Shown here: piece by piece, positions 1 through 33,839 of the stretch
Position numbering within the stretch: the first letter of the stretch is position 1
How the letters are laid out: every line of letters starts with the position of its first letter
DNA from: an uncultured Geobacteraceae bacterium
Lineage (GTDB): Bacteria > Desulfobacterota > Desulfuromonadia > Geobacterales > Pseudopelobacteraceae
Reading direction: 5' to 3'
NCBI GenBank assembly: GCA_903925005.1
Contig: CAIYDX010000205.1
Span: 1-49,957, forward strand
DNA length: 49,957 nt
Notes under the pieces: model-generated
What the model saw: only the letters and a program-made list of their open reading frames with translations
Database searches by the model: none
Told to the model about the DNA's origin: nothing
Translations under genes and position numbers: made by a program

Positions 1-13
1 AACGAAGTTTCCG

Positions 14-1255
14 ATGTTTTTTTTTCCAGCTGCAGAAATGATTCAACGATATTCCGGTATGCCACCATTGTCACTTTTCCAGGGACAATGGGTAAAGGCG
101 CCAGAATTGTTTTCTTCTTGCGACAACTTCTGCTTATTTATCTATAACAACGCAATGATGCACAGGCAAATTATGAAACTACAGGGTTGCACAACTGAAC
201 ATGGAAACGCATCGGCATTTGTTGGCTACTTGATGAGAAGTGGCGAAACGGGACTTCTCTGTGTGTCGGAAATTATGCGTGATGAAATATTCCAGCAGGA
301 TCTTGAAAATTTGCAGAGGCATCAAAAAGACGATTTTATAAGACAGTTCGGTGAAAAGTTGGATTGGTGGCGGCATCGTGAACTGACAGAAAAAGATTCA
401 CCGAAAGTTCATGCCAACAAGGCCCGAGTGTTGGCACGTGCGGTGTTAGTGGAGGATAAAGGGACAACGAGGAAAATTCACAGAACGCCGGAACATACCC
501 GAGTTCAGGAAGTGGTTCATAGTATCTCTTTAACGCAGAGATTCCACCAGACAGCTGGAAAAGCAGCCGGCAAGGAGTTTATCGAACCGTTGCCGAAGTC
601 GTTGTTAACTGACCCTGATGGTGCAGAAAAGATAAAAGCGGCTGTGCTGGCGGTGCGTAATTGCTTTCCAAGTAATCTGCCTTTAGTCCTGACAGTCCAT
701 GTAGATGGCGGTCATAACCCCCATTTGCAAGGATGGCTTTCGGAAAAAACTTGGAATGTGGAAAATAAACGTTGGGATAAACCGCATGAACTGCTGGATA
801 CGGCGGCAGGTCTTGAAAAACTATGGGGTGATGTGGCAAAGGCCGTAACAGATGCTACCGGCACTTCTTTTAATCGCAACACTGATGATCCGGTGCGGCC
901 AAAACGAACGGTCTTTCACCCGCGTACTGCATATTGGGTACAACAGTATAAACATGATGACCTGATAACAGGTGATTTTCTCCGGCTGGAACAAAACCCA
1001 AAGGCTCGGGAGGCGGTTCGGCAATTGGTTGAACAGGTTAGATATGACCGCGATAAAATGCTGCAGTTAAAGAGTGTGGCACGATTCAATGACGTTATAT
1101 CGATAGCCGAAGAAACAAACGGTCTGTTCAAGTCCCAAGCTGGGCATACGATAAAAGGTGCAACAGCGTCATCTGCGACCTCTTCAGCCAACGAAATTAC
1201 CGCCGCTATGGAGCAATGCTCCTATGTTAACCGGAAGGCTAATAAATCCAGATAG
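14..1255 (+). CDS. Possible relaxase/mobilization-like protein
   Basis: Reads up to 413 residues. The frame is open to the left edge, so the true start may lie outside; a plausible internal start is the ATG at 155 or 158, but none has a convincing ribosome binding site. The only recognisable feature is around residues 228-241, HVDGGHNPHLQGW, which resembles the histidine motif of MobA/MobL-type relaxases (H-x-D-x(3)-N-P-H-x-H) except that the last histidine is glutamine. The rest is charged and unfamiliar. It starts a three-gene operon: the next gene begins 8 bases after its stop. Context (near an integrase) fits DNA mobilization, but the family is a guess from one motif. Confidence 0.4.
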   Translation: MFFFPAAEMIQRYSGMPPLSLFQGQWVKAPELFSSCDNFCLFIYNNAMMHRQIMKLQGCTTEHGNASAFVGYLMRSGETGLLCVSEIMRDEIFQQDLENLQRHQKDDFIRQFGEKLDWWRHRELTEKDSPKVHANKARVLARAVLVEDKGTTRKIHRTPEHTRVQEVVHSISLTQRFHQTAGKAAGKEFIEPLPKSLLTDPDGAEKIKAAVLAVRNCFPSNLPLVLTVHVDGGHNPHLQGWLSEKTWNVENKRWDKPHELLDTAAGLEKLWGDVAKAVTDATGTSFNRNTDDPVRPKRTVFHPRTAYWVQQYKHDDLITGDFLRLEQNPKAREAVRQLVEQVRYDRDKMLQLKSVARFNDVISIAEETNGLFKSQAGHTIKGATASSATSSANEITAAMEQCSYVNRKANKSR

Positions 1256-1263
1256 GAGATTGT

Positions 1264-2022
1264 ATGTTAACACCATATCTGTTTGACCCCACCTCGCGGA
1301 AAAGCGTGGCGGAGCAAGTCGAGTACAACGATAAATTGAACCTTGAAAAGACACATCGCCCACTTAACATGCGTATTTATCTGGATGATGATGAAATTGA
1401 TCAATTGCAGGCAGCATTTAAAACCATTCCGATTTCGGAAAAGCCTGTCGCAATCTGGCGCTCCTGTTTCGAGCTGATTACCAGGGCACTCATTGTTGAA
1501 GAGGAGTTCACCCCCGAAACCGCCGCTGATTTCATCAATACCGGTATCGGCTGTGAACAGGAAATGTTACCGCAAATCCGCGAGGTTTTTACTACCAGCA
1601 TATTTGCGCCAATTCAGATCTTGCTTGATATGGCGTCTACCCTCCATTTTGAACTGACCAAGAAAATATTTGTGACATCAATGGAGTTGCACAACCTTGA
1701 TTACCGTTCACTGTTTCCGCAACGGGTTTGTGTGCATAGCCCTGATATGGTTCTCAAGAGGATGAAAAACCCGAAATTCAAGCCGACAGCGGAAGAGCGT
1801 AAAACATATTTCAAGGAATATAAAGAGCAGTCTTTTTCCATAATGAACAGCATGTCAATTTGGGAAATAGCTGATATCGTTCCTATGGAAAGTATGCAGA
1901 CATTACAGAATGCCGGACGCTACAGCATATTGAAACCAGTTTATGCGGATGATTCACCTACCACCGCACCGGCAGCAAAAGCGGCATCAGTGAAAGCAGA
2001 ACTCAAAGGAAAAGTCCTATGA
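1264..2022 (+). CDS. Hypothetical protein of the element operon
   Basis: 252 residues, family not recognised. The ATG follows GATAGGAGATTGT, a good ribosome binding site 6 bases upstream. The sequence is soluble-looking, without a signal peptide or membrane segment; residues about 40-50 are rich in aspartate and the C-terminal 25 residues are a low-complexity Ala/Thr/Lys tail. It lies 8 bases after the relaxase-like gene and its stop overlaps the start of the next gene (ATGA), so the three proteins are probably made together. A role in the same process as the upstream protein is inference from context only. Confidence 0.6.
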   Translation: MLTPYLFDPTSRKSVAEQVEYNDKLNLEKTHRPLNMRIYLDDDEIDQLQAAFKTIPISEKPVAIWRSCFELITRALIVEEEFTPETAADFINTGIGCEQEMLPQIREVFTTSIFAPIQILLDMASTLHFELTKKIFVTSMELHNLDYRSLFPQRVCVHSPDMVLKRMKNPKFKPTAEERKTYFKEYKEQSFSIMNSMSIWEIADIVPMESMQTLQNAGRYSILKPVYADDSPTTAPAAKAASVKAELKGKVL

Positions 2023-2372
2023 AACCAATCGACAACCCTGTTTTTAAGGCGTTCCATGGCTATCAATATGCCGCCATGGAAATTGCCGGAGAGTGCGACA
2101 AACTTTTGGAGGAACAGCAGGAGGTAGCCTTTTTTGCCGACCAGCTCCGATCTTTTTTAGCGGCTATCCGCAAAACGCTTGAATCGGCGTCACCGACTCA
2201 AGCAGAGCATACTATTACGATAACATCGGCAGAATTTTTAAAACTTACCGCAGATTTGGTGAAAATAGAATCTGCTGTAGGGCGAGAGGCGCGGCAGGTG
2301 GAATCTGTTCCTGCCCGTACGCAGAAACCTCAAGGACAGGGGTTGTCGCTGTTAGCGAGAAAGACAAATTAA
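2019..2372 (+). CDS. Hypothetical protein, last gene of the element operon
   Basis: 117 residues, not recognised. It overlaps the preceding gene by four bases (ATGA), indicating translational coupling; the site AAAGGAAAAG lies just upstream within that gene. It is predicted largely helical, with acidic stretches at residues 25-35, and a basic, Gln-rich C-terminus. No cysteine cluster, signal peptide or membrane segment. It is the last gene before the inward-facing tmRNA gene, and a hairpin at 2421-2446 separates the two. Confidence 0.55.
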   Translation: MKPIDNPVFKAFHGYQYAAMEIAGECDKLLEEQQEVAFFADQLRSFLAAIRKTLESASPTQAEHTITITSAEFLKLTADLVKIESAVGREARQVESVPARTQKPQGQGLSLLARKTN

Positions 2373-2420
2373 AAAAATAGTTCAGTGATAGAAAGCCAAC
2401 AACCAGCACCCGATAATAAA

Positions 2421-2446
2421 ATAGCGCCGCAGTGATGCGGCGCTAT
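2421..2446 (-). terminator. Hairpin terminator of element-borne ssrA, possibly bidirectional
   Basis: Perfect 11-bp stem, ATAGCGCCGCA and TGCGGCGCTAT, with a 4-base loop. On the minus strand it is followed by TTTATTATC, a U-rich tail 40 bases after the tmRNA 3' end. On the plus strand the tail is weaker (CAAATCG), but the hairpin could also stop the operon that ends at 2372. Confidence 0.75.
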
Positions 2447-2485
2447 CAAATCGACAATAAGTTACTGTATTATCGAACTAAAGTT

Positions 2486-2496
2486 TGGTGGAGGTG
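2486..2496 (+). repeat. Direct repeat TGGTGGAGGTG, candidate attachment core
   Basis: Identical to 4761-4771. Both are the 3' ends of tmRNA genes, so part of the identity is expected from tmRNA conservation. The flanking T-arm sequences differ, which limits the shared core to 11 bp. Confidence 0.5.
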
Positions 2497-2889
2497 CAGG
2501 GAATTGAACCCTGGTCCAAACGCTCTTCAATACTAACCTCTACGCTGATAGATTGATTACGGGTTTAAATTCAAAGTAAGCCATCACTCACGGCACAAAG
2601 AATCGATTCCTAAATACGGTGACTATCGGACCATCCTCACCGTCCCATTACAATTACTTCTTTTTGACAGCCGAAGGGTTACACAGGGAGTTAAGTCTAC
2701 CCTCTAGCTCGCTTGGATTCCGAAGAATCTAAGGCTGGTACTAAGCAGCAATTGCACCTGCAAAGGCGTAATTGTCTGCAGCAGTTGTATTGTTTGCATT
2801 TATTGTTTAGTGGATTATTCTAGAGGCCAACCACTATCCTCCCAGCGCAATCAGAATCTATCTTCGCCTGTCGAAACCTTTACACCCCC
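2486..2889 (-). ncRNA. ssrA: tmRNA, element-borne copy
   Basis: 404-nt transfer-messenger RNA. The 5' end GGGGGUGUAAAGGUUUCGAC pairs perfectly over 7 bp with CACCUCC before the 3' ACCA (one G-U pair). The T-arm is CAGGG-UUCAAUU-CCCUG. The tag frame runs from about 2797 to the TAG at 2741-2743. It reads ANNTTAADNYAFAGAIAA if it starts at the GCA at 2797, or a shorter form starting at a later Ala codon; it ends in the usual proteolysis signal AIAA. It differs strongly from the second tmRNA gene at 4761-5155 but keeps all hallmarks, so it looks functional. It has its own terminator (2421-2446) and is separated from the integrase by another (2959-2991). Confidence 0.85.
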
Positions 2890-2957
2890 AAAGCGTAATT
2901 TCTCTTCTTTTTTGAATATATCCCATTTTCGTTATAATTGCACTATTTCTGTTAAAT
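2890..2957 (-). promoter_or_regulatory. Probable promoter region of element-borne ssrA
   Basis: AT-rich stretch between the integrase terminator and the tmRNA 5' end. On the minus strand it contains TTTAAC and TATAAC 14 bases apart, and a second -10-like TATATT further down. No single good pair at 17 bases stands out, so the exact promoter is uncertain. A processed 5' leader is normal for tmRNA. Confidence 0.3.
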
Positions 2958-2958
2958 T

Positions 2959-2991
2959 TCGGATCTCCCAGATTGTCCCTGAGAGACCCGA
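2959..2991 (-). terminator. Hairpin terminator of the integrase gene
   Basis: On the minus strand TCGGGTCTC pairs with GAGATCCGA over 9 bp (one G-U), with an inner CAG/CTG pairing in the 15-base loop, followed by AAATTT. It lies about 40 bases after the integrase stop. Confidence 0.55.
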
Positions 2992-3029
2992 ATGTCTGAG
3001 TTGATAGGTTACTATAGGTTGAAAGTGGA

Positions 3030-4649
3030 TTAACCCCAAGCACGTTTCCAAGGTTTAACGTTTTCAAGTGATTTACTGAAGTCTACATTATCAATGATCT
3101 CTTTGAGCTTCTGATAATCAAACTTTGTAATGTAGCCGTCGTGAGCTTTGCCATCTTCATGGCCGACGATGGCAGTTCGATCTTCTTCGGGCACATGGTT
3201 TAAAACCATTGCGGTGATGAAGTTTTTCCGAAAGCTATGAAAGACAAGTTTATCGTTGTTGATCCCGATGCTTTCCAAAAATCGGCCTGGCCCGTTAAAC
3301 CATTTTGAAATAGTTTGCCCAACATAAACTTTAGTCTCAGGTTTTTCGCGATTAGGGTCCTTTTCCCAGTAATACAATTCCGGGAAAATACGAGTCTCAT
3401 TACGTTTAGTGAGTTCTTCGATGCGCTCTTTAAAACCGAGCTCCAATAGTTTTTTATGGATCGGCACGAAGCGGCGACTCTTATCCGTCTTAATTGTATG
3501 GCCAGGAGTATCTTCGCTCATGTTGATGCCGTATATACCGTCACGTTCGATAATGTCGGTAAGGCATAGCTGAGCAATTTCAGTTTGACGCATGCCGGTC
3601 AGCAACGCAATAAGCGGCGACCAGTATTGATAAACTTTAGAAGGACGGTCACCAGTAAAGTTATCATGACTGAACATCACAGTGAGTTGTTCTTCAGTGA
3701 ACGAATCGCGTTTGGCGTGTCTAGGCTCTCGACTCTTCTTTTTTAGATCGCCAAATGGATTATATGCTCCCTTGAACGCCCAGTGGTATAGCGTCGAGCA
3801 CGAGATAAGGAGACTATTTACGTACGTAGGTTTAAACAATTCAGACGCCGGTATTGTAGTATCGTTGATCAGATCCTTTAGTGAACGGTCTCGATATTTG
3901 ATGGAAAGTTTCCGACGCTTAGGGATACGCACTATTGCTTTGCGGAACTCCATTGCCATCATAGGCGTTACAGACCGCAGAAAGCGATCTCCCAGAACAT
4001 CAACGAGAAGCACCAAGTCCGCTCTCGCTTCTTTCTCAATTTTAGAATTCTTCCACCTTTCGAGTTCATTACCGAACTCCATATACCGGGTGATAGCCTC
4101 AGAAATGCGCATTTTATCGACATCTATTTCTTTTAAATGATCATATTCGATGGCACAGTCAAAATCTTCTTCGAGTGGCGTTGCAGCAATCGACGGAAGA
4201 TTTGCATGATTATGAGTTGTCGGAGGAGCTATTAGAGCAGGCGCTATTTCTAGGGGAGGGCAAGCAACTTCTTCTATACGACTGAGAATTTTCGAAGCAA
4301 ACGGGTTTCCGGAACCAGCTTGGAGTAGCAGCTGAAGATCCTCTGTAGGGATGTCAATTTTGCGCTTAAAAGATGTTCCGTCCGGAAGCGAGTGCTTGGA
4401 CTCGAAAAGCATTTCGGACAAACCCGGAATTGTTATGCGATTGGAGGACATTTGTTCACCACGAAGGTAGCGAAAAAGCAGGTCTGTTTTATAAGCAAGC
4501 TCACGCGCAAGTTGAGCAGCCTCCTGCTTACTACCTGTTTTTAAAGTAATTTTTATCTCACGTTTGCCAAGTTTCTCACGAAGATCGACGGGGACTGAGC
4601 GACGAAAAAAGTAGTTGGCGGGAGTAGCAAGAATGTAACATCTAACCAT
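3030..4649 (-). CDS. Tyrosine recombinase (site-specific integrase)
   Basis: 539 residues from the ATG at 4649, chosen because AAAAGGAGACT lies 5 to 6 bases upstream; the open frame continues 26 codons further without support. It catalyses integration and excision of the element. The N-terminus (residues about 1-60, with YFFRRSVPVDLREKLG) matches the DUF6538-type start of many integrases that use tRNA or tmRNA genes. The catalytic set is visible: R354 in LLTGMRQTE, H471 and R474 in HSFR, H497 in VGHE, and nucleophile Y506. The central part (about 200-330) is the core-binding domain. The gene is on the same strand as, and just downstream of, the ssrA at 4761-5155. It appears intact. Confidence 0.92.
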   Translation of the reverse strand: MVRCYILATPANYFFRRSVPVDLREKLGKREIKITLKTGSKQEAAQLARELAYKTDLLFRYLRGEQMSSNRITIPGLSEMLFESKHSLPDGTSFKRKIDIPTEDLQLLLQAGSGNPFASKILSRIEEVACPPLEIAPALIAPPTTHNHANLPSIAATPLEEDFDCAIEYDHLKEIDVDKMRISEAITRYMEFGNELERWKNSKIEKEARADLVLLVDVLGDRFLRSVTPMMAMEFRKAIVRIPKRRKLSIKYRDRSLKDLINDTTIPASELFKPTYVNSLLISCSTLYHWAFKGAYNPFGDLKKKSREPRHAKRDSFTEEQLTVMFSHDNFTGDRPSKVYQYWSPLIALLTGMRQTEIAQLCLTDIIERDGIYGINMSEDTPGHTIKTDKSRRFVPIHKKLLELGFKERIEELTKRNETRIFPELYYWEKDPNREKPETKVYVGQTISKWFNGPGRFLESIGINNDKLVFHSFRKNFITAMVLNHVPEEDRTAIVGHEDGKAHDGYITKFDYQKLKEIIDNVDFSKSLENVKPWKRAWG

Positions 4650-4654
4650 AAAAA

Positions 4655-4713
4655 AGTCTCCTTTTAGTACAATCCCGTGTACCGAAACTTGTACCGAATT
4701 GAAAAAGGAGACT
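4655..4713 (-). promoter_or_regulatory. Integrase leader: hairpin over the ribosome binding site, plus repeats
   Basis: AGTCTCCTTTT at 4655-4665 and AAAAGGAGACT at 4703-4713 are perfect 11-bp inverted repeats. In the integrase mRNA the upstream arm would pair with the ribosome binding site and hide it. The 37-base loop holds two direct copies of GTACCGAA (4679-4686 and 4691-4698) spaced 12 bases apart, which could be a protein-binding site. This suggests control of integrase translation or directed excision; both are inference. Confidence 0.5.
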
Positions 4714-4760
4714 CTAAAATAATTCAAATGTTATGTGTTATCAGCTACTTGCGTGATTGA

Positions 4761-4771
4761 TGGTGGAGGTG
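4761..4771 (+). repeat. Direct repeat TGGTGGAGGTG, candidate attachment site at the element boundary
   Basis: The 3' end of the smpB-linked tmRNA gene, next to the integrase upstream region, and identical to 2486-2496. The actual crossover may lie further inside the tmRNA gene (for example in the T-loop). Confidence 0.5.
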
Positions 4772-5155
4772 GTGGGAGTCGAACCCACGTCCAAAAGACC
4801 TACAAAACCAGACACTACGAGCGTAGTTCATTTTCTAATCTTACGCTCAGGTCGAAATAGAACGAAAACCCCGGAGCCTCAGAAGGTTTGACTGACACCT
4901 ACAACCAGGATCACTCTAGTTTGCTTCTTTTGATGTGCGAAGAGTTACCAGAACTATCTACTCTTTACACCACCTAGGATTTTCTCTAGGGATTGTTGAC
5001 ACTAAGCAGCGAGGCGAGCCTCAAAAGCGTAGTTGTCTGCTGTTGCATTTGTTAAGTTGGCAATTAATAATTCGCAGATTTTTTAACGCGGGCCATCTGC
5101 GTCCCTCGACTCGCTTCCAATTCCTTTAATCCCCTGTCGAAACCTTTACGCCCCC
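4761..5155 (-). ncRNA. ssrA: tmRNA, smpB-linked copy
   Basis: 395-nt tmRNA starting 38 bases after the smpB stop, so this is probably the native gene. The 5' end is GGGGGCGUAAAGGUUUCGAC; the 3' end is T-arm GUGGG-UUCGACU-CCCAC then CACCUCC-ACCA. The tag reads ATADNYAFEARLAA if the resume codon is the GCA at 5044-5046, ending at TAG 5002-5004. Position 6 of the acceptor stem is C opposite A, a mismatch, whereas the element-borne copy has U-A there. This is expected if an integrating element replaced the 3' end. It has no terminator of its own; the integrase follows directly, so read-through into it is possible. Confidence 0.88.
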
Positions 5156-5193
5156 CTTCTAAAGTAAAATGTGAATGGTGAATTTGGAAACAA

Positions 5194-5664
5194 TCAATCC
5201 CGGTTTCTAGCCTTCAGCGCCTGCGACATCTCACGCTGGCTGTCCTTGGTTTTCATATCCTCACGTTTATCGTACAGTTTCTTCCCTTTGGCAAGCCCTA
5301 TCTCGACCTTTACCAAGCCGTCCTTGAAATAGAGCCTGAGCGGAATGACCGACAGCCCCTTCTCGCGAATCCTGCCGTACAGCCGGTCTATTTCGCGGCG
5401 GTGCAAGAGCAGCTTGCGGTTGCGATCCGGTTGGTGATTCTGACGGTTGCCGAATTCGTACTGCGAAATATTCAAGTTGTGCAGGTAGGCCTCGCCGTCG
5501 CGTACCAGCATGAACGAATCATTCAAATTGGCCATGCCGGCCCGCAAAGACTTGACTTCTGTCCCCTGCAGCACCAAGCCCGCCTCAAACTTCTCTTCGA
5601 TAAAATAATCGTGATAAGCTTTTTTATTGTTACAGATAAGTTTTTCACCCATATTTGGCATCAT
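5194..5664 (-). CDS. smpB: SsrA-binding protein SmpB
   Basis: Binds tmRNA and brings it to stalled ribosomes in trans-translation. About 152 residues from the ATG at 5652 (MGEKLICNNKKAYHDYF) or 156 from 5664; neither has a strong ribosome binding site. Family motifs are clear: NKKAYHDYFIEEKFEAGLVL, GTEVKSLR, NLNDSF, and the basic C-terminal tail GLAKGKKLYDKREDMKTKD that enters the mRNA channel. Length is normal. It is immediately upstream of ssrA on the same strand and divergent from glgP, leaving about 100 bases for both promoters. Confidence 0.97.
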   Translation of the reverse strand: MMPNMGEKLICNNKKAYHDYFIEEKFEAGLVLQGTEVKSLRAGMANLNDSFMLVRDGEAYLHNLNISQYEFGNRQNHQPDRNRKLLLHRREIDRLYGRIREKGLSVIPLRLYFKDGLVKVEIGLAKGKKLYDKREDMKTKDSQREMSQALKARNRD

Positions 5665-5762
5665 AACAGAGATTGTGCGATAATGGAACGCTCAACCTTG
5701 CATTAAGTTCAAGAAATATATATAGTTCTCTCTCGTTAACTTTGTCTCAAGGGGTGGATGTC

Positions 5763-8255
5763 ATGACCACAATCGAAACGTCTCCGATCCGCGATGAAAA
5801 ACAGACCGCTGTAGAACTGCAGCGTGCATTTCTCCGCCACTTGCAATATACCCTGGTCAAGGACAAGTACTCCGCGACCAAAGGCGATCTTTATCAGGCT
5901 CTGGCGTTTGCCGTTCGCGACGTATTGGTCGATCAGTGGCTTGATACCCAGCAGTCATATTATATCAACGATGCCAAGCGGGTTTACTACATATCGATGG
6001 AATTCCTGATGGGGCGTACGCTCGGCAACAGTTTGATAAACCTGGGGATTATGGACGAGTGGCAGACCGCTCTGAAAGAGATGGGGATCAATGTCGAGGA
6101 ATTGCTGGAACAGGAGTGGGATGCGGGGCTGGGTAACGGCGGCCTGGGGCGGCTGGCGGCCTGCTTTCTCGATTCAATGGCTACTATGAACCTGCCTGCC
6201 TATGGCTATGGCATCCGGTACGAATTCGGCATGTTTTATCAGAAAATTGTTGGCGGGAATCAATACGAAGCGCCCGACAACTGGCTGCGCTATGGCAATC
6301 CCTGGGAGTTTGGGCGCCAGGAACACCTCCATAAGATCAAGTACAACGGAAGGGTGGTGGTCTATAACGACGATCATGGTCATACGCGCTACTCCTGGGT
6401 GGATACAACCGATGTCATGGCGCTGGCCTATGATGTTCCGATTCCTGGCTACGGTAATAATACCGTTAATACGTTGCGTCTCTGGAGTGCCAAGGCAACC
6501 CGAAATTTTGAACTGGGATCTTTTAACCAGGGCAACTACATCGGAGCCGTTGAGTCGAAAATGCGAAGTGAGAATATCTCAAAGGTACTTTATCCGGCCG
6601 ATCATATGGCGGAAGGTAAAGTGCTTAGATTACGCCAGGAATATTTTTTGTCGTCCGCCACGGTGCAGGATATTTTCTACCGCTTTACCAAGAAGCACGA
6701 CGATCTGAAAATGCTGCCGGATAAAGTGGCAATTCAGCTTAATGACACCCATCCAACCCTGGCGATTCCTGAGCTGATAAGGATTCTTCTGGATGAAAAA
6801 CATCTGAGCTGGGACGATGCCTGGGATATTGCTACCAATACGTTTGCCTATACCAATCACACCATTCTTCCCGAAGCGCTGGAAAAGTGGCCGGTTCGGA
6901 TGATGGAAGATATTCTGCCGCGCCATCTGCAGATTATTTACCGTATCAATGATCTCTTCATCCAGCAGGTTAGCGCCCGTTTTCCGGGTGACGATGATCG
7001 TCTGCGGCGAATGTCGATCATCGGCGAGGATGGTGAGCAATGCGTGCGTATGGCACACCTGGCGATTGTTGGCAGTCATTCGATCAATGGCGTGTCGGCC
7101 CTGCATAGTGAAATTTTAAAAGATGACCTGTTCCACGATTTTTACGAGCTCTGGCCTGAACGCTTTAACAACAAAACCAACGGTATCACCCAGCGCCGCT
7201 GGCTGAAACATGCCAACCCCTGGCTGGCCGACCTGATCTCATCAAAGATCGGGGAAGGGTGGGTCACTGATCTGGACCAGCTGAAAAAACTGATTCCGAT
7301 GGCGGATGATCGTGAATTTCAACAACAGTGGATTGAGGTTAAGCGTGCCAACAAACGTGTCCTTGCTGAGTATATTCAGAGGAAAAACGGGGTGGCAGTG
7401 TCGCCCGATTCGATGTTTGACTGTCATACCAAGCGTATCCACGAATACAAGCGCCAACTCCTGAACGTGCTGCATGTTATAACCCGCTACAACCGCCTCA
7501 AGGCTAATCCGGATGCCAACGTCGCTCCGCGTACGGTCATATTCAGCGGCAAAGCCGCACCTTCGTATTTCATGGCCAAGCTGATAATCAAACTGATTAA
7601 TTCTGTCGGTGAGATCATTAACAAGGATCCGGACGTCAGCGGCCGTCTCAAGATACTCTTTCTGGCCAATTATAATGTCTGGCTTGCCGAGATGATCTTT
7701 CCGGCATCAGATCTCTCCGAACAGATTTCCACGGCCGGCACCGAGGCGTCCGGTACCGGAAATATGAAATATTCTCTGAACGGGGCACTGACAATCGGTA
7801 CGCTGGATGGCGCCAACATCGAGATCATGGAGGAGGTTGGTCGCGATAATATTTTCATTTTCGGTTTGACCGCGGATCAGGTTACCGGGCTGAAAAATGC
7901 CGGCTACCAGCCGTATGACTACTATCAGCATAATCCGGAACTGAAACTGGCAATTGACATGATCGGCAACGGCAGTTTTTCACTTCATGAACCTGATCTT
8001 TTCAAGCCGATTGTCGATACGCTGCTGAGCATCGACAACTACCTGCTGCTGGCCGATTATTCTTCTTATATTGCCTGTCAGGACGAGGTGGATAAATTGT
8101 ATCAACAGCCGCACGAATGGGCGCGAACCTCGATCCTTAATACCGCCGGCATGGGCAAATTCTCCAGCGATCGTACCATCGCCGAATATGCGCGTGACAT
8201 CTGGAACATCAAACCTGAAAAGATAAGCCGCCATAGCAGGCGAGACCTGCGTTAG
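5763..8255 (+). CDS. glgP: Glycogen/alpha-glucan phosphorylase
   Basis: Releases glucose-1-phosphate from glycogen. 830 residues from the ATG at 5763, chosen for the upstream AAGGGGTGG; a longer frame back to 5673 overlaps smpB and is unlikely. Landmarks: YYISMEFLMGRTLGNSL near residue 80, NGGLGRLAACFLDS near 130, and the pyridoxal-phosphate site EASGTGNMKYSLNG with the Schiff-base lysine K669, followed by GTLDGANIEI. Full length for the family, cytoplasmic. It stands before rarA with 14 bases between, so the two may share a transcript. Regulation is not visible. Confidence 0.97.
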   Translation: MTTIETSPIRDEKQTAVELQRAFLRHLQYTLVKDKYSATKGDLYQALAFAVRDVLVDQWLDTQQSYYINDAKRVYYISMEFLMGRTLGNSLINLGIMDEWQTALKEMGINVEELLEQEWDAGLGNGGLGRLAACFLDSMATMNLPAYGYGIRYEFGMFYQKIVGGNQYEAPDNWLRYGNPWEFGRQEHLHKIKYNGRVVVYNDDHGHTRYSWVDTTDVMALAYDVPIPGYGNNTVNTLRLWSAKATRNFELGSFNQGNYIGAVESKMRSENISKVLYPADHMAEGKVLRLRQEYFLSSATVQDIFYRFTKKHDDLKMLPDKVAIQLNDTHPTLAIPELIRILLDEKHLSWDDAWDIATNTFAYTNHTILPEALEKWPVRMMEDILPRHLQIIYRINDLFIQQVSARFPGDDDRLRRMSIIGEDGEQCVRMAHLAIVGSHSINGVSALHSEILKDDLFHDFYELWPERFNNKTNGITQRRWLKHANPWLADLISSKIGEGWVTDLDQLKKLIPMADDREFQQQWIEVKRANKRVLAEYIQRKNGVAVSPDSMFDCHTKRIHEYKRQLLNVLHVITRYNRLKANPDANVAPRTVIFSGKAAPSYFMAKLIIKLINSVGEIINKDPDVSGRLKILFLANYNVWLAEMIFPASDLSEQISTAGTEASGTGNMKYSLNGALTIGTLDGANIEIMEEVGRDNIFIFGLTADQVTGLKNAGYQPYDYYQHNPELKLAIDMIGNGSFSLHEPDLFKPIVDTLLSIDNYLLLADYSSYIACQDEVDKLYQQPHEWARTSILNTAGMGKFSSDRTIAEYARDIWNIKPEKISRHSRRDLR

Positions 8256-8269
8256 GGACACTGCCCGCC

Positions 8270-9631
8270 ATGAATACGCCTGATCTCTGGGAGCAGAGCT
8301 CCGCCGGAGCACATACCGCAGCGGAGCTGTCTCCGCATGCGCCTCTTGCCGAACGGATGCGGCCCCGCTCCGTTGCCGAATTTTCCGGACAGGAACATCT
8401 GATTGGTGAAGGGCGCATTTTACGGCGCATGATCGAAACCGATTCGCTCGCCTCGCTGATCCTCTGGGGGCCGCCCGGTTGCGGAAAAACCACGCTGGCT
8501 CACATTATTGCCGCCGAAACCAAATCGCACTTCATCTTTTTCTCCGCGATTCTCTCGGGCGTCAAGGAGATCCGGGAAACTTTCCGCGAGGCGGAACGCT
8601 ATGCGGCGCGCGGCATTCGCACCATCTTGTTTATCGACGAGATTCACCGCTTTAATAAATCCCAGCAGGACGCGTTTCTTCCCTATATCGAGAAAGGTGT
8701 TGTCACCATTATCGGTGCTACAACCGAGAACCCCTCATTTGAAGTTATTGCCCCACTGCTGTCGCGTTGCCGCGTTCTAACGCTGCAGCAGCTTGAACCG
8801 GCCGCAGTGCGCGCGTTATTGGTACAGGCCTTAACCGACTGCAAACGGGGGCTCGGGAATCTTTCCCTGTCGGCAACCGACGAGGCACTGGAGTTTCTGG
8901 CGGCACAGGCGGACGGAGATGCTCGTGTTGCACTAAATACTTTGGATGTTGCCGCAGGGCTCATGGAGGGTCAAGGGTCAAGGGACAAGGGTCAAGAGGT
9001 GATAACCCTTGAGGTTGTTCAGGAGGCGCTGCAGAAAAAGGCGCTGCTTTATGACAAGGGTGGTGAGGAGCATTATAATGTCATTTCGGCGTTCATCAAG
9101 TCATTGCGCGCCAGCGCCCCGGATGCCGCTCTGTACTGGTTGGCCCGGATGCTGGAGGCCGGCGAGGATCCAATCTTCATCCTGCGGCGCATGATCATCC
9201 TGGCCTCGGAAGACATCGGCAACGCCGATCCGCGTGCCCTTCAGATGGCCGTTTCGGCACTGCAGGCTTTTCAGGTTATCGGCATGCCGGAAGGGCGGAT
9301 AATTATGGGGCAGGCGGTTACCTATCTGGCCACCGCCCCGAAATCCAACGCCTCGTATGTCGGCATCGATGCCGCACTGGCCGAAGTCAGGAAAAGCGGT
9401 GCCTTGCCGGTGCCGCTGCACATACGCAATGCCCCGACAAAACTTATGAAAGAGCTTGGCTATCACAAAGGGTATCAGTATGCTCATGATTATGAAGACG
9501 GCTACTCCGGGCAGGAGTGTCTGCCGGATAAGCTGTCCGGCAGAAAATTTTATGAACCTGCCGGGCATGGCTACGAAAAGAGTATCGTGGAGAGGATGGA
9601 GTGGTTGAAAAACAGAAAGGATAAGCCGTAA
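8270..9631 (+). CDS. rarA: Replication-associated recombination protein RarA (AAA+ ATPase)
   Basis: DNA-dependent ATPase of the MgsA/WRNIP1 family acting at stalled forks. 453 residues. Walker A GPPGCGKT at 67-74, Walker B FIDEIHRFNK near 124, sensor 1 GATTENPSFE, and the C-terminal tetramerization part with EDIGNADPRAL and HIRNAPTKLMKELGYHKGY. Residues about 233-243 (GQGSRDKGQEV) are encoded by an in-frame run of a heptamer repeat (8968-8999) also found between lepB and aspS; this is a variable linker in the family, so the insertion is probably tolerated. The upstream ribosome binding site is weak. Confidence 0.96.
   Translation: MNTPDLWEQSSAGAHTAAELSPHAPLAERMRPRSVAEFSGQEHLIGEGRILRRMIETDSLASLILWGPPGCGKTTLAHIIAAETKSHFIFFSAILSGVKEIRETFREAERYAARGIRTILFIDEIHRFNKSQQDAFLPYIEKGVVTIIGATTENPSFEVIAPLLSRCRVLTLQQLEPAAVRALLVQALTDCKRGLGNLSLSATDEALEFLAAQADGDARVALNTLDVAAGLMEGQGSRDKGQEVITLEVVQEALQKKALLYDKGGEEHYNVISAFIKSLRASAPDAALYWLARMLEAGEDPIFILRRMIILASEDIGNADPRALQMAVSALQAFQVIGMPEGRIIMGQAVTYLATAPKSNASYVGIDAALAEVRKSGALPVPLHIRNAPTKLMKELGYHKGYQYAHDYEDGYSGQECLPDKLSGRKFYEPAGHGYEKSIVERMEWLKNRKDKP
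8968..8999 (+). repeat. In-frame heptamer repeat GGGTCAA inside rarA
   Basis: Three copies of GGGTCAA and one GGGACAA in a row. The same heptamer occurs as an inverted cluster at 39611-39674. Here it is read through as coding sequence. Confidence 0.8.
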
Positions 9632-10092
9632 TGAAGCCATTCACCCTTGATCGCACCCAGGTTTTGCCGATTACCCTTGAAACGGCCTGGAATTTTTTTT
9701 CCAACCCGGCCAATCTCGCAAAGATCACACCACCGGCAATGGATTTCTGTATTACATCGCCGCCTCAGAGCGGCATCTATGCCGGTCAGATCATAACTTA
9801 CACCATTCGTCCGTTTTCGCGCGTTACCGTCAACTGGACAACCGAGATCACTCACGTTGATCGTCCTAATTTCTTTGTTGACGAGCAGCGTTTTGGCCCG
9901 TATCGTTTCTGGCATCATCAGCACCGTTTTCGCGAAGTCAAAGGGGGTGTTGAAATGTCTGATCTTGTTCATTACCTGCTAAGCCATGACCAGTTGGCCG
10001 GTCTGATCAATCGCCTGTTCGTGGCGCCACGCCTCAGGCGAATATTCGATTTTCGCAGCAGGGCACTTGCAGAACTATTTTTTAATAAATAA
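9631..10092 (+). CDS. SRPBCC (START-like) family protein
   Basis: 153 residues; the ATG overlaps the rarA stop by one base (TAATG) and follows GAAAGGATAAG, so it is translated after rarA. The opening pattern, QVLPITLETAWNFFSNPANLAKITP, is the classic start of the polyketide cyclase/dehydrase-like SRPBCC fold, a cavity-forming helix-grip domain that binds hydrophobic ligands. Ligand unknown. No signal peptide. Related single-domain proteins are common as hypothetical conserved genes; nothing in the sequence gives a specific reaction. Confidence 0.85.
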   Translation: MKPFTLDRTQVLPITLETAWNFFSNPANLAKITPPAMDFCITSPPQSGIYAGQIITYTIRPFSRVTVNWTTEITHVDRPNFFVDEQRFGPYRFWHHQHRFREVKGGVEMSDLVHYLLSHDQLAGLINRLFVAPRLRRIFDFRSRALAELFFNK

Positions 10093-10138
10093 GCTATTAC
10101 ATAACTGCCCAGATAAAAAAATTAAATACAAACCGTTT

Positions 10139-10250
10139 CACACGGAGGCACAAAGGCACGGAGAAAACCAAGCTTTATAGACTTGAAGTCCTTGTGGTAA
10201 ATAACAAGCCTTTTGTTATGGCTATCTTTGTGCCTCTGTGCCTTCGTGTG
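10139..10250. repeat. Inverted repeat with 25-base arms (CACACGGAGGCAC type)
   Basis: Arms at 10139-10163 (CACACGGAGGCACAAAGGCA and on) and 10226-10250 (its near complement, ending GTGCCTTCGTGTG) differ at a few positions. It fills most of the 226-base gap between the SRPBCC gene and pfkA. Similar GGCACAAAGGCAC palindromes are known as dispersed extragenic repeats in many environmental bacteria. No gene is seen in the gap. Confidence 0.8.
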
Positions 10251-10318
10251 AGATCAGTTTAGACGCTTTCATTACCTAAGTTATTACGCTATTACTTCAA
10301 TAAGCAGGAGACATCACT

Positions 10319-11281
10319 ATGAAACGACTTGCAATATTGACCAGCGGCGGAGACTGCTCCGGCATGAATGCTACCATCCGCGCAGCTGCACGGACCGCCT
10401 TAGCCAACGACATCGAGATGATCGGTTACCGTAAGGGGTATGCCGGCCTCCTGAAAAACGATTACATCGTTCTCACTACCCAGGCTGTTTCCGGGACGAT
10501 GCAACGGGGCGGGACATTTCTGCAGTCGGCCCGTTCGGCCGAATTCCGCACCGACGAAGGGCGGCAAAAGGCGCTGGATAATCTGCTTAAGGAAAGGGTT
10601 GAGGGGCTGATCGTGATCGGCGGTGATGGCTCGTTGAACGGCGCTCTGGCGCTTGAAAGAATGGGCTTTCCGGTGATCGGCATCCCGGCCAGCATCGACA
10701 ATGATATTGCCTATACCGATATGGCTCTGGGGGTCGATACTGCGCTTAACAATATCATTTATGCCGTGGACTGTATCAAGGACACCGCCAGTTCCCACGA
10801 CCGGGCCTTTATAGTTGAAGTTATGGGACGTAATTCCGGATATCTGGCTTCAACCGCCGCCATCGCATCCGGCGCCGAGTTTGCCATCGTTCCAGAGGTG
10901 GAACTGGACCTTGGCGAAATGTGCCACCAACTTCGCCAACGTTATGACGAGGGGAGGACTAATGCTCTGATCATCATGGCGGAGGGGGCTGGACGGGCGC
11001 AGGAAGTTGCCGACGGCATCAAAAACGCCATCGGTTTTGAAACTCGCGTAACCGTGCTTGGGCACTATCAGCGGGGTGGGGCGCCATCCGTTTTTGATCG
11101 TCTCCTGGGGAGCCGTTTCGGCATGAAGTCGGTCGAACTTCTGCTGTCCGGCACGAAAGGCGTTATGGTTGGCCTATCGGCCAATTCGCTTACCACCACG
11201 CTGCTGGAGATGGTTGTTAATGGCGGACAGAAGAAGTTGAACGAAGATCTGCTGCACATGGCGGAGATTCTGGGAATATGA
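10319..11281 (+). CDS. pfkA: 6-phosphofructokinase, ATP-dependent type
   Basis: Phosphorylates fructose-6-phosphate in glycolysis. 320 residues, normal bacterial length; ribosome binding site GCAGGAGAC upstream. Motifs: LTSGGDCSGMNATIR at the N-terminus, VIGGDGSLNGAL near residue 100 (glycine after GGD indicates ATP rather than pyrophosphate as donor), and PASIDNDI and the TALNNIIYAVDCIKDTASSH region carrying the fructose-6-phosphate site. Its stop overlaps the corA start (ATGA). Three genes, pfkA–corA–membrane protein, form a coupled operon. Confidence 0.95.
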   Translation: MKRLAILTSGGDCSGMNATIRAAARTALANDIEMIGYRKGYAGLLKNDYIVLTTQAVSGTMQRGGTFLQSARSAEFRTDEGRQKALDNLLKERVEGLIVIGGDGSLNGALALERMGFPVIGIPASIDNDIAYTDMALGVDTALNNIIYAVDCIKDTASSHDRAFIVEVMGRNSGYLASTAAIASGAEFAIVPEVELDLGEMCHQLRQRYDEGRTNALIIMAEGAGRAQEVADGIKNAIGFETRVTVLGHYQRGGAPSVFDRLLGSRFGMKSVELLLSGTKGVMVGLSANSLTTTLLEMVVNGGQKKLNEDLLHMAEILGI

Positions 11282-12354
11282 AACGCTCCGGCTCACGTTT
11301 CCATAACAAGCGTTCGGTTAAGAACGGTCTTTCCCCCGGTACTCTGGTGCATATCGGAGAAGAGTCGAACAAAAAAGTACAGATTTCCGTTATCGGCTAC
11401 ACGCCGGACAGCATCGAAGAGCATCGTTTCGAGCAGATTGATCAGTATCTGGACAATCCCTGCGACAGCGCCGTCCTATGGGTCGATATCGAAGGGGTTC
11501 ACGATGTTGAACTGATCCGAGCTCTTGGTGAAAAGCATGCATTTCATCCTCTGGTGCTGGAAGATATCGTCAACACCGTGCAGCGCCCCAAAATTGAGGA
11601 TTACGGCGATTATCTCTTCATTGTTTTGAGGATGCTCTCTCCGACGGCAGGGGGGGACTTCAGTTCGGAACAGTTAAGTATTATTCTCGGTCCGGACTAT
11701 CTGTTCACCTTCCAGGAAGGAATCAAGGGGGATGCTTTTGACTCGGTCCGAAATCGAATACGCAACGGCAAGGGGAAAATTCGCGGTATGGGGGCCGATT
11801 ATCTCGCCTATGCGCTGATCGATGCTGTTGTCGACGGTTATTTCACTGTTCTTGAAGAGTTCGGTGAGGGGGTTGTCGATGTCGAGGAAGAGTTGACGCT
11901 GGCACCGGATCAGGAGTCTCTTCGTAGTATCAACACGATGAAAAAGGAGATAATCTACCTGCGCAAGAGTGTCTGGCCGTTACGAGAAGTGATCTCGTTT
12001 CTGGAAAGGGGTGACAGCCATCTGCTGCACGATGACACAAGGCTTTATTTCCGGGATGTTTATGATCACACAGTTCAAGTGATCGACACGGTTGAGACTT
12101 ACCGCGACCTGCTCTCAGGCATGCTTGATCTTTATCTCTCCAGCATCAGCAACCGTACCAACGAGGTGATGAAGTTTTTGACCGTGATCGGCACGATCTT
12201 TATGCCGCTGACATTTCTGGTCGGGGTTTACGGCATGAACTTCAAGCATTTTCCGGAGTTGGAGTGGCAGAACGGCTATTTCATCCTTTGGGGATTGATG
12301 ATCGCCATGGCGCTGCTGATGGTAATTTATTTCAGAAGGAAGCGCTGGCTATGA
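11278..12354 (+). CDS. corA: Magnesium/cobalt transporter CorA
   Basis: Inner-membrane channel for Mg2+ and Co2+. 358 residues; starts inside the pfkA stop (ATGA). The long N-terminal cytoplasmic domain contains HPLVLEDIVNTVQRPKIEDYG, and the C-terminus has two membrane helices joined by the signature YGMNF and followed by a positively charged end (FRRKRWL). Full length for the family (Thermotoga-like subfamily). Its stop overlaps the next start (ATGA), giving a translationally coupled trio. Confidence 0.96.
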   Translation: MKRSGSRFHNKRSVKNGLSPGTLVHIGEESNKKVQISVIGYTPDSIEEHRFEQIDQYLDNPCDSAVLWVDIEGVHDVELIRALGEKHAFHPLVLEDIVNTVQRPKIEDYGDYLFIVLRMLSPTAGGDFSSEQLSIILGPDYLFTFQEGIKGDAFDSVRNRIRNGKGKIRGMGADYLAYALIDAVVDGYFTVLEEFGEGVVDVEEELTLAPDQESLRSINTMKKEIIYLRKSVWPLREVISFLERGDSHLLHDDTRLYFRDVYDHTVQVIDTVETYRDLLSGMLDLYLSSISNRTNEVMKFLTVIGTIFMPLTFLVGVYGMNFKHFPELEWQNGYFILWGLMIAMALLMVIYFRRKRWL

Positions 12355-12698
12355 CACGACTTATACTCAAATGGGCGCTTAACTCCTTTGCCCTCTTTTT
12401 CGTTATGAAGCTGATCTCCGGCATCCGGATCGACCGGTTTCAGGATCTGCTGCTGGCAACGCTGGTTATCGGCCTGTTGAACGTTTTTCTCCGCCCGATC
12501 ATCATTCTGCTGACCCTGCCGGTTACGCTGCTGACACTTGGCCTGTTTACCTTCGTAATCAACGGCCTGATATTCTATCTGGCGGCGCATCTGGTGCCAG
12601 GATTCCATGTTACCGGCTTCGGCTCCGCGTTTGTCGCTGCGCTTCTCTTCAGTATGTTCAGTTTTGTACTTAACATGATGTTCGGCACGAAGCAGTGA
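12351..12698 (+). CDS. Phage holin-like (DUF360) four-helix membrane protein
   Basis: 115 residues from the ATG at 12351, chosen because AGAAGGAAGC lies upstream and it overlaps the corA stop. Four hydrophobic helices fill the protein; the second has the family-typical GLLNVFLRPIIILLTLPVTLLTLGLF region. Members of this family are widespread inner-membrane proteins called phage holin family 4 or DUF360; a real holin role here is doubtful, since no phage genes are near. Confidence 0.85.
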   Translation: MTRLILKWALNSFALFFVMKLISGIRIDRFQDLLLATLVIGLLNVFLRPIIILLTLPVTLLTLGLFTFVINGLIFYLAAHLVPGFHVTGFGSAFVAALLFSMFSFVLNMMFGTKQ

Positions 12699-17881: not shown

Positions 17882-19432
17882 TTATGATAACGGGTTAGAA
17901 GAATTTGACTCCTGTCCGGCCGGCTGTTGAGCGATCGGTGTCCGGTTCTTAACCGCAAACACCTTGATCCCCGCTTTTGTCTCCAGTGGACAGACATTCT
18001 CGCAGATGCCGCAACCGTTACAGATCTCTTCCACCAGATAAGGCTCCTTGACCGTTTTGAGCCGGCCGTCAAGCCCCATGACCTGGACGTCGCGGGAGCG
18101 GATAGCCTTCTCCGGAATCGGGCAGTGCTCTTCACAGACGATACAGTCGATCTTGCGGGCAAACGGCAGACAGTGATTCTTGTCGAAGACCCCCTTGCCG
18201 ATTACTTCGCGCCGTTTTGTCTCTACCGGCAGTGACGGGATCGCTCCGGTCGGGCAGACCTGGCCGCAGAGGGTGCAGTTGTATTCGCAATATCCGAGCT
18301 TTGGGATAACCAGAGGGGTGTAGATTCCTTCTAAACCTGCCTGATACGAAGCGGGATACAGCGCGTTCTTCAGACAGACCTTCATGCATTCTCCACACCT
18401 GACACATTTTTTCAGGAAGTCATCCTCACTCCGTACGCCCGGCGGGCGGAGCAGGCACGACTCATTCTCTGGATAGCGAAAACGGGTCGGCAGTGCCAGC
18501 AGCACACCACCCGCGATCCCCCCCAGCAGCAGTCGTCTTTCCGGCAGAAACGGTTCGCTTCCCTTCTGCTTCAGTGAAGGGCGGAAGGATATCCGGTCAT
18601 GCGGGCACCCCTCCCGGCACTCCATGCAGAGGATACATTCATCCTTGAGCAGAACGTCACCGCTAAAACTGGTCGGGCAGAGTTTGCGGCACTCTCCGCA
18701 GTCGCCGCATACCGTCATCGGCACACGGCTGAAGAGTGAAAACCTTCCCAGCAATCCGAGAAGCGTCCCCAATGGGCAGAGGTTCCGGCACCAGTTACGC
18801 GTTTCAAAACGCTCCAGTGCGATGATGCCGATCAGGATGGCCGTCGAAAGAAGCGCCAGCGGATAGAGTGTATCGCGGAACGGCAGCAGGTTGTCGCGGA
18901 TCAGGTTATAAGCCGGTGCCATGGCATCGCGCCGCTCGCCGATCATCCGGTACAGCCCGACCCACCCCTCCTTGGCTGTGAGGCCAAGGAGCGGGTAGAG
19001 TAGAAATGTCAGAGCACGCAGCAGGATGGCCATCGGGTCCAGCAAGCCGCTCAGATTGAGATTGAACAGCGAAGCCGTCAATAGCGGCAGCAGCAGCCAG
19101 TATTTGGTGTTTCCCTTGAGTGCCCTGATCGGCGCAGTTTTGCGGATCTTAACTGTTATCAGGTCGAGGACCGTCCCGAGCGGACAGATCCAACCGCAGA
19201 AAAAGCGCCCAAGCAGCAGTGTCGCGATGACCATCAGAGCGGCCGGCAGCAGCAGCCAGGTCCATGACTTTGTTGCCAAAAGCCAACTTAACAGCACCAG
19301 TGGATCAACCCTGAAAAAGGCATTGACCGCGGCATTGATTTCATCATGGCCACGGTATTCCGTCTGAACGAACAGGATCAGGAACAGAGCCAGAAAGAAC
19401 AGTTGACTGCAGCGGGGCAGGGTACGCTTCAC
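17882..19432 (-). CDS. Membrane polyferredoxin, NapH/YccM-like 4Fe-4S protein
   Basis: 516 residues, GTG start 4 bases after the DUF362 gene with GAAGG upstream. The N-terminal half has several membrane helices with NapH-type motifs (CGWICPLGT near residue 75, CRNLCPLGT near 215). The C-terminal half has at least five cysteine clusters of [4Fe-4S] type: CGDCGECRKLCP, CILCMECREGCP, CVRCGECMKVC, CTLCGQVCP, CNGCGICENVCP, plus CIVCEEHCP. It is expected to move electrons between the quinone pool or an external donor and the partner protein upstream. The exact redox partner is not known. Confidence 0.9.
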   Translation of the reverse strand: MKRTLPRCSQLFFLALFLILFVQTEYRGHDEINAAVNAFFRVDPLVLLSWLLATKSWTWLLLPAALMVIATLLLGRFFCGWICPLGTVLDLITVKIRKTAPIRALKGNTKYWLLLPLLTASLFNLNLSGLLDPMAILLRALTFLLYPLLGLTAKEGWVGLYRMIGERRDAMAPAYNLIRDNLLPFRDTLYPLALLSTAILIGIIALERFETRNWCRNLCPLGTLLGLLGRFSLFSRVPMTVCGDCGECRKLCPTSFSGDVLLKDECILCMECREGCPHDRISFRPSLKQKGSEPFLPERRLLLGGIAGGVLLALPTRFRYPENESCLLRPPGVRSEDDFLKKCVRCGECMKVCLKNALYPASYQAGLEGIYTPLVIPKLGYCEYNCTLCGQVCPTGAIPSLPVETKRREVIGKGVFDKNHCLPFARKIDCIVCEEHCPIPEKAIRSRDVQVMGLDGRLKTVKEPYLVEEICNGCGICENVCPLETKAGIKVFAVKNRTPIAQQPAGQESNSSNPLS

Positions 19433-19436
19433 GGTG

Positions 19437-20321
19437 CTACGCCTTCACGATCTTGATCTTGTCCAGGTTCATCTCGCCGAGGCCGCGCTTGTATGCCGCC
19501 ACCGTCACCGGGATGTCGCCCGGTTTCATGCCGAACAGTGTGGTGGCAAAGGCATCGGCGGCAACAGTATCGGTCGAGGCGATCACCTTGTTAAGCACCT
19601 TGACGTCGGCGATATTGCCCCCTTGAGGTCCGTGAGCGGTAAGGATGCGGGTTGCATCGATAATCGTGAGATGACACTTGACATGGGCATTGACATCCGC
19701 CAGGGCGGCTTCCAGGTTGCGGTGGATGTTCCCGCGTGTTCCCCCCATGATCCCCATGACATTTTTCAAGCCGAGGGTCAGCTTGGAAAGCGTATGGTGC
19801 TTGGCGACCGGCACGTTGATGTAGACATTGGCCGAAAGCGCTTCGTCATACAGTTCCCATTCCTTCAGGCACGCGCCGTTCAATGTCACTTTTCTGAACC
19901 GCTCCGTCTCAATATGCTTGCATTGGACCCCTTTCATCCCTTTCAGGGCGCCTTCGATCCCGCTGTTGACATAGCAACGGCGTGAATCGTTGCAGGTGTT
20001 GTCGAAGACCTTGACCTTTTTGGCCCCTGCGGCCAGACACTCTTCGACCACTGCCCGCACGACCAGGGGATGGGTATTGGCGGCAAGTTCGCTTGACCGG
20101 TCCCATCCGATGTTGGGCTTGACCACAACGATGTCTCCTGGCTTGACAAACCGTCTCATTCCGCCGAGGGCGTTGATGGCCTTTCGGGTTATGGCCGGGT
20201 AGTCAGTCCCTTCCGCCACCGCCACAAGAGACTGTTCGCGTGCAGCAAGTGCTTCGTTGATCAGCACGGGGGCCAGCAAAACCGCGGCTCCGGTGGTTTT
20301 TATGAATGTCCGTCTGTCCAT
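19437..20321 (-). CDS. DUF362 domain protein with Tat-like signal
   Basis: 294 residues from the ATG at 20321, since GGAGGGACAC lies directly upstream; an upstream ATG at 20333 would overlap that site. N-terminus MDRRTFIKTTGAAVLLAPVL is a twin-arginine-type export signal, so it is probably a periplasmic protein. The body matches DUF362 (VVVKPNIGWDRSSELAANTHP, VKVFDNTCNDSRRCY, INVPVAKHHTLSKLTLGLKNVMG). The function of DUF362 is unknown; it is often paired with ferredoxin-like proteins, as here with the polyferredoxin 4 bases downstream. Confidence 0.9.
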   Translation of the reverse strand: MDRRTFIKTTGAAVLLAPVLINEALAAREQSLVAVAEGTDYPAITRKAINALGGMRRFVKPGDIVVVKPNIGWDRSSELAANTHPLVVRAVVEECLAAGAKKVKVFDNTCNDSRRCYVNSGIEGALKGMKGVQCKHIETERFRKVTLNGACLKEWELYDEALSANVYINVPVAKHHTLSKLTLGLKNVMGIMGGTRGNIHRNLEAALADVNAHVKCHLTIIDATRILTAHGPQGGNIADVKVLNKVIASTDTVAADAFATTLFGMKPGDIPVTVAAYKRGLGEMNLDKIKIVKA

Positions 20322-20506
20322 GTGTCCCTCCATGAATATACGCTAAATATTGGTAAAATATAAGGTGCTGTCGGCGTGATTGTACGCTTATCCGAGTTTT
20401 TTTCAAGCAGACAAAAGCAGAAAAGAGCCGTAATAATTTCTGTTTCCGTTTTGTTGTTACGCTTCCTCAATAAACAGAAAACCTTATTCACCTTACTGAA
20501 TATTGA

Positions 20507-33572: not shown

Positions 33573-33839
33573 TCAACTTAACAGTCGGTCGTAGTCGCTA
33601 TGGGTTCCGATCCAGAACCAGACTATACCATCGGGTATGGAAACACCAAGGGCGCGGTAATGGAGTCCGATACGGACCGACCAGAACTGTCCGATTTGTT
33701 TTAAATGCAGGGAAGGGTGTTGGGGATTGTTCTTCAGTAACTCAAAATTTGCGTCGGCCCGTTGCTGAATAGCTGAAGGAAGACGGGAGTAACAGTCCCA
33801 AAAGCGTGGTGAAGTATTGTGAACTAAAGTGGTTTGCAT
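33573..33839 (-). CDS. RelE/ParE-like toxin
   Basis: 88 residues, ending in SDYDRLL. Pattern SPRFWDCYSRLPSAIQQRADANFELLKNNPQHPSLHLKQIGQFWSVRIGLHYRALG is that of plasmid-stabilisation RelE/ParE folds. It overlaps its antitoxin partner upstream by 16 bases. Probably an mRNA endonuclease or gyrase inhibitor; the RelE-type basic catalytic residues cannot be assigned by eye. Confidence 0.75.
   Translation of the reverse strand: MQTTLVHNTSPRFWDCYSRLPSAIQQRADANFELLKNNPQHPSLHLKQIGQFWSVRIGLHYRALGVSIPDGIVWFWIGTHSDYDRLLS

Follow-up and report, generated by a model that had tools for sequence, protein, structure and literature searches.

Transfer-messenger RNA (tmRNA) is usually viewed as vertically inherited, single-copy and, for genomic islands, a mere landing site at its gene ssrA. 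The locus described here raises the question of how two complete and unlike tmRNA genes came to stand on either side of one integrase, and what the extra gene might do for its host. The locus lies near one end of the window, which is the entire contig CAIYDX010000205.1 (49,957 nucleotides, nt); the far end of the integrated element is beyond base 1. Judging from sequence comparison, we consider it moderately probable that the gene at 2486-2889, here called type B, is a mobile tmRNA unit carried by an integrative element at the 3' end of the resident ssrA, and that it is able to displace this resident. The gene at 4761-5155 beside smpB, here called type C, is most likely the resident.

An earlier note on this DNA had placed two complete, divergent minus-strand tmRNA genes at 2486-2889 and 4761-5155, and ARAGORN calls both at exactly these positions. 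The covariance-model check that was proposed there gives the same picture, with both loci matching RF00023 over model positions 1-374 at 139.7 bits (E value 9.5e-55) for B and 138.8 bits (E value 2.3e-54) for C, far above the cut-off of 47 bits. The divergence of the two genes is borne out by the stretches reported as shared, which are limited to 59 nt at the 3' end (75% identical), 40 nt in the tag region (75%) and 26 nt at the 5' end (92%). ARAGORN finds a tag frame in both, and the suggestion that the tags differ holds for the calls ANNTTAADNYAFAGAIAA in B and ATADNYAFEARLAA in C, where the start of the B tag is uncertain and most relatives are called from AADNY. Across 16 B sequences, 8 of 106 predicted pairs are kept despite changes on both sides, including three versions of the T stem; such paired changes are as expected for a working RNA. 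The type C gene begins 38 nt from the stop codon of smpB, its neighbor in the earlier note also.

The single integrase open reading frame (ORF) between the two genes, recognized there as well, matches DUF6538 (1.7e-15) and Phage_integrase (1.3e-10), and is followed by B and then by three genes on the opposite strand. An element in the congener G013 has an integrase 60% identical to that of the window and genes at the same places after it, two of them similar (29% each), with no tmRNA between the integrase and these next genes. The congener G008 retains a decayed integrase region with two similar genes (26% and 47%), and there is no tmRNA there either. The placement of B inside the element, as had been claimed, is thus supported by both sister elements. 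Mean GC content, taken in 500-base windows, is 44.5% over positions 1-5000 versus 51.6% over 5001-12000. The three cargo genes (ORF117, ORF252 and ORF413) yield nothing informative in Pfam, PHROGs or NCBIfam. The predicted model of the ORF413 product is poor (predicted local distance difference test score, pLDDT, 57), and its best PDB matches are mostly relaxases, headed by the MobA relaxase domain (E value 7e-3, none at 0.001), so that mobilization by this product is a lead only. In the G013 element (L073, contig C119), positions 7716-12541 encode a DnaA-like ATPase, a ClpP-like protease, an AAA protein and a PD-(D/E)XK nuclease. Six peptide patterns found no relatives of the integrase in genome_contigs or viral_contigs, B has no match among 50,697 phage and 72,556 plasmid records, and exact 5' patterns of B and C are absent from the viral contigs. 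Type C gives seven matches in the phage records, covering 8-10% of the query at its 3' end.

Inspection of the acceptor stems reveals a possible trace of the insertion that the proposed reading calls for. All seven pairs form in B. Six of seven form in C, where GGGGGCG faces CACCTCC, leaving a C6:A67 mismatch (bases 5150 and 4770) with G3:U70 kept. Among 39 tmRNAs compared (37 whole, two read across contig ends), an acceptor mismatch occurs in two, the C gene of the window and the type A gene of G013, at pair 6 in both, and each is followed by an integrase of this kind. In G013, contig C99 ends within the A gene and contig C119 begins with the same 3' end as that of the window's resident, followed by the integrase; together with the mismatch, this arrangement fits an element end derived from a GGGGGTG-type tmRNA overwriting the end of its target. 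Six genomes have a B whose 3' end matches the last 35 nt of the window's C gene exactly.

The idea that B offers a fresh attachment target for tandem insertions did not survive comparison of the T-arm and acceptor, which read CAGGG..CCCTG in B versus GTGGG..CCCAC at the resident 3' end where the element is inserted; moreover, the window holds no additional tmRNA 3'-end fragment. Also considered and rejected was a 2.3-kb element made up of integrase and tmRNA with its boundary at the 3' terminus of B: this terminus pairs with the gene's own 5' end, and it matches the end of C for 11 bases before the identity breaks off.

As part of the proposed reading, B would be a self-contained transcription unit made of a promoter-like motif, a complete tmRNA and a terminator. 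The terminator noticed earlier is present as a 12-pair terminator-like hairpin 3' of the gene. The motif GTGCAA-17-TA is common to 8 of 16 B loci, and a B-like terminator is found by pattern in five of the 16 and by eye in G118, a member of another genus. The arrangement resembles a phage moron, an autonomous transcription unit placed between element genes, in that the B unit sits between element genes and is absent from the sister elements of G013 and G008. Unlike a moron, B makes an RNA of the translation machinery, and its carrier is not established as a phage.

To place the two genes among their relatives, tmRNAs were compared across the 39 genomes of the window's genus in the set. Three types occur: A (353-355 nt, tag ADNYNTPVALAA and similar), B (404-407 nt, tag ..AADNYAFAGAIAA and similar) and C (395 nt, tag ATADNYAFEARLAA and similar). 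The tmRNA behind smpB is A in 16 congeners, B in 12 and C in four, with four of the A and two of the C genes partial at contig ends; the types behind smpB in G002, G004, G009, G013, G014 and G058, as well as the C of G008, were assigned from such partial genes. Two of the 39 have a tmRNA unlinked to smpB (a B in G010, part of a C in G008), and none was found in five (G018, G022, G025, G029 and G034). The gap between smpB and tmRNA is 13-57 nt in 16 of the 34 congeners read, with A, B and C all included, and reaches 3,040 nt elsewhere. Relatives were also compared for the presence of both genes at this place, as the earlier note had advised, and C and B stand together behind smpB in no other congener. 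In the rest of the family, 27 of 30 genomes with a match have a tmRNA of 351-355 nt (the other three measure 404, 395 and 394 nt), and of these short genes that of G116 alone was aligned and is type A. Because the short gene predominates elsewhere in the family, A is probably ancestral and B and C, including the C of the window, are probably arrivals.

In an order-wide survey, 6 of 141 genomes (G000, G013, G023, G031, G055 and G074) have two tmRNA matches over the cut-off; in a phylum sample where three candidates per genome were scored, making the count a lower bound, at least 2 of 395 (G000 and G425) have two matches at an E value of 1e-25 or better. In G031 the A gene behind smpB shares a 128-kb contig with a B at a distance of 24 kb, and G013 has A plus a C, on contig C3, that could not be linked to the smpB locus. 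The second tmRNA of G023 (L068, contig C401) was not counted; it accompanies its own SmpB (57%) on a 5.4-kb contig and is probably contamination. The complete genomes G055 and G074 (L104-L107) each hold a second, nearly whole tmRNA 15-20 kb away, and were rejected as instances of the same case, the second copies being of the genome's own type and truncated by about 25-30 nt at the start, as if displaced by an insertion on the 5' side. An ordinary ssrA island, with another integrase, is marked in G031 by a 3' tmRNA fragment (L049, contig C62, 99286-99311) that lies 7.6 kb from the A gene, and G036 resembles the empty site of this island. In the one-contig genome G066, the sole tmRNA match (L108, about 8460-8793) has no normal 3' acceptor strand and is not called by ARAGORN.

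Residues of the resident gene in relatives indicate what may follow such an insertion. G028 keeps 23 nt from the beginning of an A-type gene, located 52 nt after smpB, with the start of an intact B about 130 nt beyond; its relative G013 has A where G028 has this stump. In G118, nt 2-120 of an A-type gene stand behind smpB (90.8% identical to the A of its congener G116, E value 2.4e-42); the B promoter motif and then an intact B come next. G028 and G118 each have a single tmRNA match. The one tmRNA detected in G010 is a B on a different contig from smpB, behind which about 11 nt of a tmRNA start may be left, as judged by eye. Type B thus appears to have displaced the resident tmRNA in relatives. 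Because a B-type gene is the only tmRNA found in G028, G118 and G010, it is plausible that B can supply tmRNA function. Three other genomes (G006, G015 and G016) carry B seamlessly on a short spacer with an ordinary T-arm, and these cases need another kind of exchange, perhaps ordinary homologous recombination. A 416-nt B-like tmRNA in G086 (L110, 7519-7934, tag ANDKLAGFFAADNYAFAGAVAA) adjoins an SmpB that is typical of the genus (87-89%). Elsewhere in that genus tmRNAs measure about 351-353 nt, and the 416-nt gene is perhaps another replacement.

Identity between genera points in the same direction. The B bodies of G000, G031, G028, G017 and G118 cluster together (FastTree support 0.965), and the B of G118 is 94.3-96.2% identical to those of the other four, all of the window's genus; its smpB DNA is 74.6-76.9% identical to theirs. 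The type A gene of G116 is 83-85% identical to those of four congeners of the window. Type C is 97.7-98.2% identical within the genus and 88.6-89.9% identical to the genes of G137 and G133; smpB of G137 is 62-65% identical to that of the window's genus. From these comparisons the tmRNA gene itself seems to have been exchanged between species and genera. Within the genus, a tree of the phosphorylase adjoining smpB (built from the 29 of 36 rows whose fetched stretch gave more than 400 residues) contains five starred sister pairs of unlike type: G028 (B) and G013 (A), G016 (B) and G009 (A), G004 (A) and G014 (C), G012 (A) and G002 (C), and G015 (B) and G023 (A).

Taking as its basis what is directly seen, namely the two complete genes, the unit structure, the mismatch, the unlike types in close species, the stumps and the cross-genus identity, we infer the following course. 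The integrase would have acted at this site to insert the element at the 3' end of the type C resident behind smpB, and the insertion would have swapped the last bases of the resident for the element's own, giving the C6:A67 mismatch. The element would bring a complete B unit just behind the integrase, and B, whose T-arm is unlike the insertion site, would not offer the same attachment sequence. With both genes kept, B would be transcribed, charged and used with the host's SmpB as a spare, covering for a damaged or lost resident. A single deletion running from inside the resident through the integrase could then leave a 5' stump and an intact B as the sole tmRNA, as in G028 and G118. A broader and more tentative proposal, to which we give somewhat less than even chances, is that integrative elements in these Desulfuromonadales-type bacteria act as replacement vectors for an essential-type RNA gene: each would import a complete foreign tmRNA together with its control signals, impair or outlive the resident ssrA, and become the source of the host's only tmRNA. 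Against it stand the lack of support in the smpB tree for three of the five type changes and the single-base nature of the mismatch.

Several observations weigh against the proposed course. The mismatch is a single base that could be a point mutation, and the last 35 nt of the window's C differ from those of the C in G021 solely by this base; the second mismatch case, in G013, was pieced together from the ends of two contigs. In another genus, G137 has a C with a 51% identical integrase and an acceptor free of the mismatch. A pattern search of the window's genome for the far attachment site, with up to two mismatches allowed, returned the gene itself and nothing else. In the 12 congeners with B behind smpB, B simply stands there and is not in such an element, and a consensus promoter scan of the window did not report the promoter-like motif of B. 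The short smpB tree, in which 17 of 32 inner forks are open, recovers just the pairs G028/G013 and G004/G014, leaving three of the five type changes unsupported.

The last point bears on an alternative in which B would be a relic or neutral cargo, trans-translation would depend wholly on C, and the replacements elsewhere would be ordinary homologous exchanges of the smpB-ssrA region between species. Since smpB and tmRNA adjoin, and G016 and G015 pair with other B genomes in the smpB tree, joint exchange of the two genes is possible in those cases. As a general account, it must meet a stump with an intact B in two genera, the signals and base-pair conservation of B, and an smpB that is much more diverged between genera than B is, while two of the five pairs (G028/G013 and G004/G014) are starred in both trees; we regard it as unlikely. 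The reverse history, in which B is the old host gene and C arrived with the element on the 5' side of B and took the place behind smpB, draws on displacement of the 5'-side kind existing in G055 and G074, and on the distal B of G031, whose next genes look chromosomal by eye (cysN, cysD and mnmA). The C genes of G013 and G021 also share upstream sequence (92% over 77 nt), though only that of G021 is behind smpB on the same contig, and thus C too may be mobile. Set against this history are the mismatch in C, which suggests exchange of a 3' end, the lack of a tmRNA between the integrase and the next genes in G013 and G008, and the presence beside the window's B of the unit signals found beside the stumps of G028 and G118; we judge it quite improbable. 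That the two adjacent genes are a chimera of a mixed assembly might be suspected from a draft of 419 contigs with 6.16% contamination. Both tmRNAs and smpB lie on one 50-kb contig, G031 carries two types on one 128-kb contig, and G013 has the same layout on the integrase side, which makes an artefact very improbable.

Displacement by a mobile B unit would add to processes that are known separately. The tmRNA gene is described as the most enriched target of tyrosine-integrase tDNA islands, with the target restored on insertion (Islander, PMC4383910). Like the element here, those islands have an integrase beside the tmRNA 3' end; as described in that source, they carry a target fragment and leave a fragment at the far end, whereas the element here holds an entire tmRNA of a different type. 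Islands also accumulate behind ssrA in Dehalococcoides (PMC3146451), where the account is of a serine recombinase, 20-bp repeats and fragments and, as far as it goes, of no second whole tmRNA. Complete tmRNAs do occur on mobile genomes of phages (PMC9004378, PMC4131195), one count giving 402 of 18,146 phage genomes (PMC9004378); here, by contrast, the carrier is an element integrated at ssrA, and the host gene appears displaced in relatives. Second ssrA alleles are already known (PMC4131195) and are presented there, in what that source outlines, apart from any mechanism or replacement. Phage tmRNAs, second ssrA alleles and islands in ssrA are on record, and searches of titles and abstract openings in a partial library gave no report of an element-borne tmRNA displacing the resident ssrA. 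An intermediate with two genes and end states with a stump and a foreign gene are both visible among these genomes, providing natural tests of the freedom with which a tmRNA can work with the SmpB of another lineage and of whether a mobile element can become indispensable by taking over a core gene. If elements do act as replacement vectors, one still carrying the host's only tmRNA could not be lost.

Features of the tmRNA locus and its surroundings in the window.
Feature	Coordinates	Strand	Basis or remark
Type B tmRNA, complete, within the putative element	2486..2889	-	ARAGORN, RF00023; tag call ANNTTAADNYAFAGAIAA
Complete type C tmRNA behind smpB, taken to be the resident	4761..5155	-	ARAGORN, RF00023; tag ATADNYAFEARLAA
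Tyrosine integrase, DUF6538 domain	3030..4649	-	ORF open from 4727 (TTG); ATG at 4649
Terminator of the B unit, 12-pair stem and T-rich tail	2412..2447 (hairpin 2447-2420)	-	
Promoter-like motif of the B unit, GTGCAA-17-TATATT	2915..2943	-	Comparison of B loci
Operator-like inverted repeat preceding the B promoter motif	2961..2989		
Putative attL core, equal to the resident tmRNA 3' end	4761..4783	-	Same end starts G013 contig C119
ORF117 of the element, without known family	2019..2372	+	
ORF252 of the element	1264..2022	+	29% to G013 and 26% to G008 element protein
ORF413 of the element	14..1255	+	47% to G008 and 29% to G013 element protein; weak relaxase fold lead
smpB, chromosome side	5194..5664	-	
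Glycogen phosphorylase, chromosomal anchor adjoining smpB in congeners	5763..8255	+	

Two further regions of the window were noted outside the element. Before lepA, positions 33573-37001 hold four small gene pairs that look toxin-antitoxin-like by eye (RelE/ParE, Phd, HigBA and HTH-like). Positions 17882-20333 encode a ferredoxin-type membrane protein and a second gene, 84-87% identical to a pair that stands just after the tmRNA on contig C3 of G013, and the same two gene families also follow the tmRNA of G035. In the window these genes are on the opposite side of smpB, which implies that the neighborhood has been rearranged.

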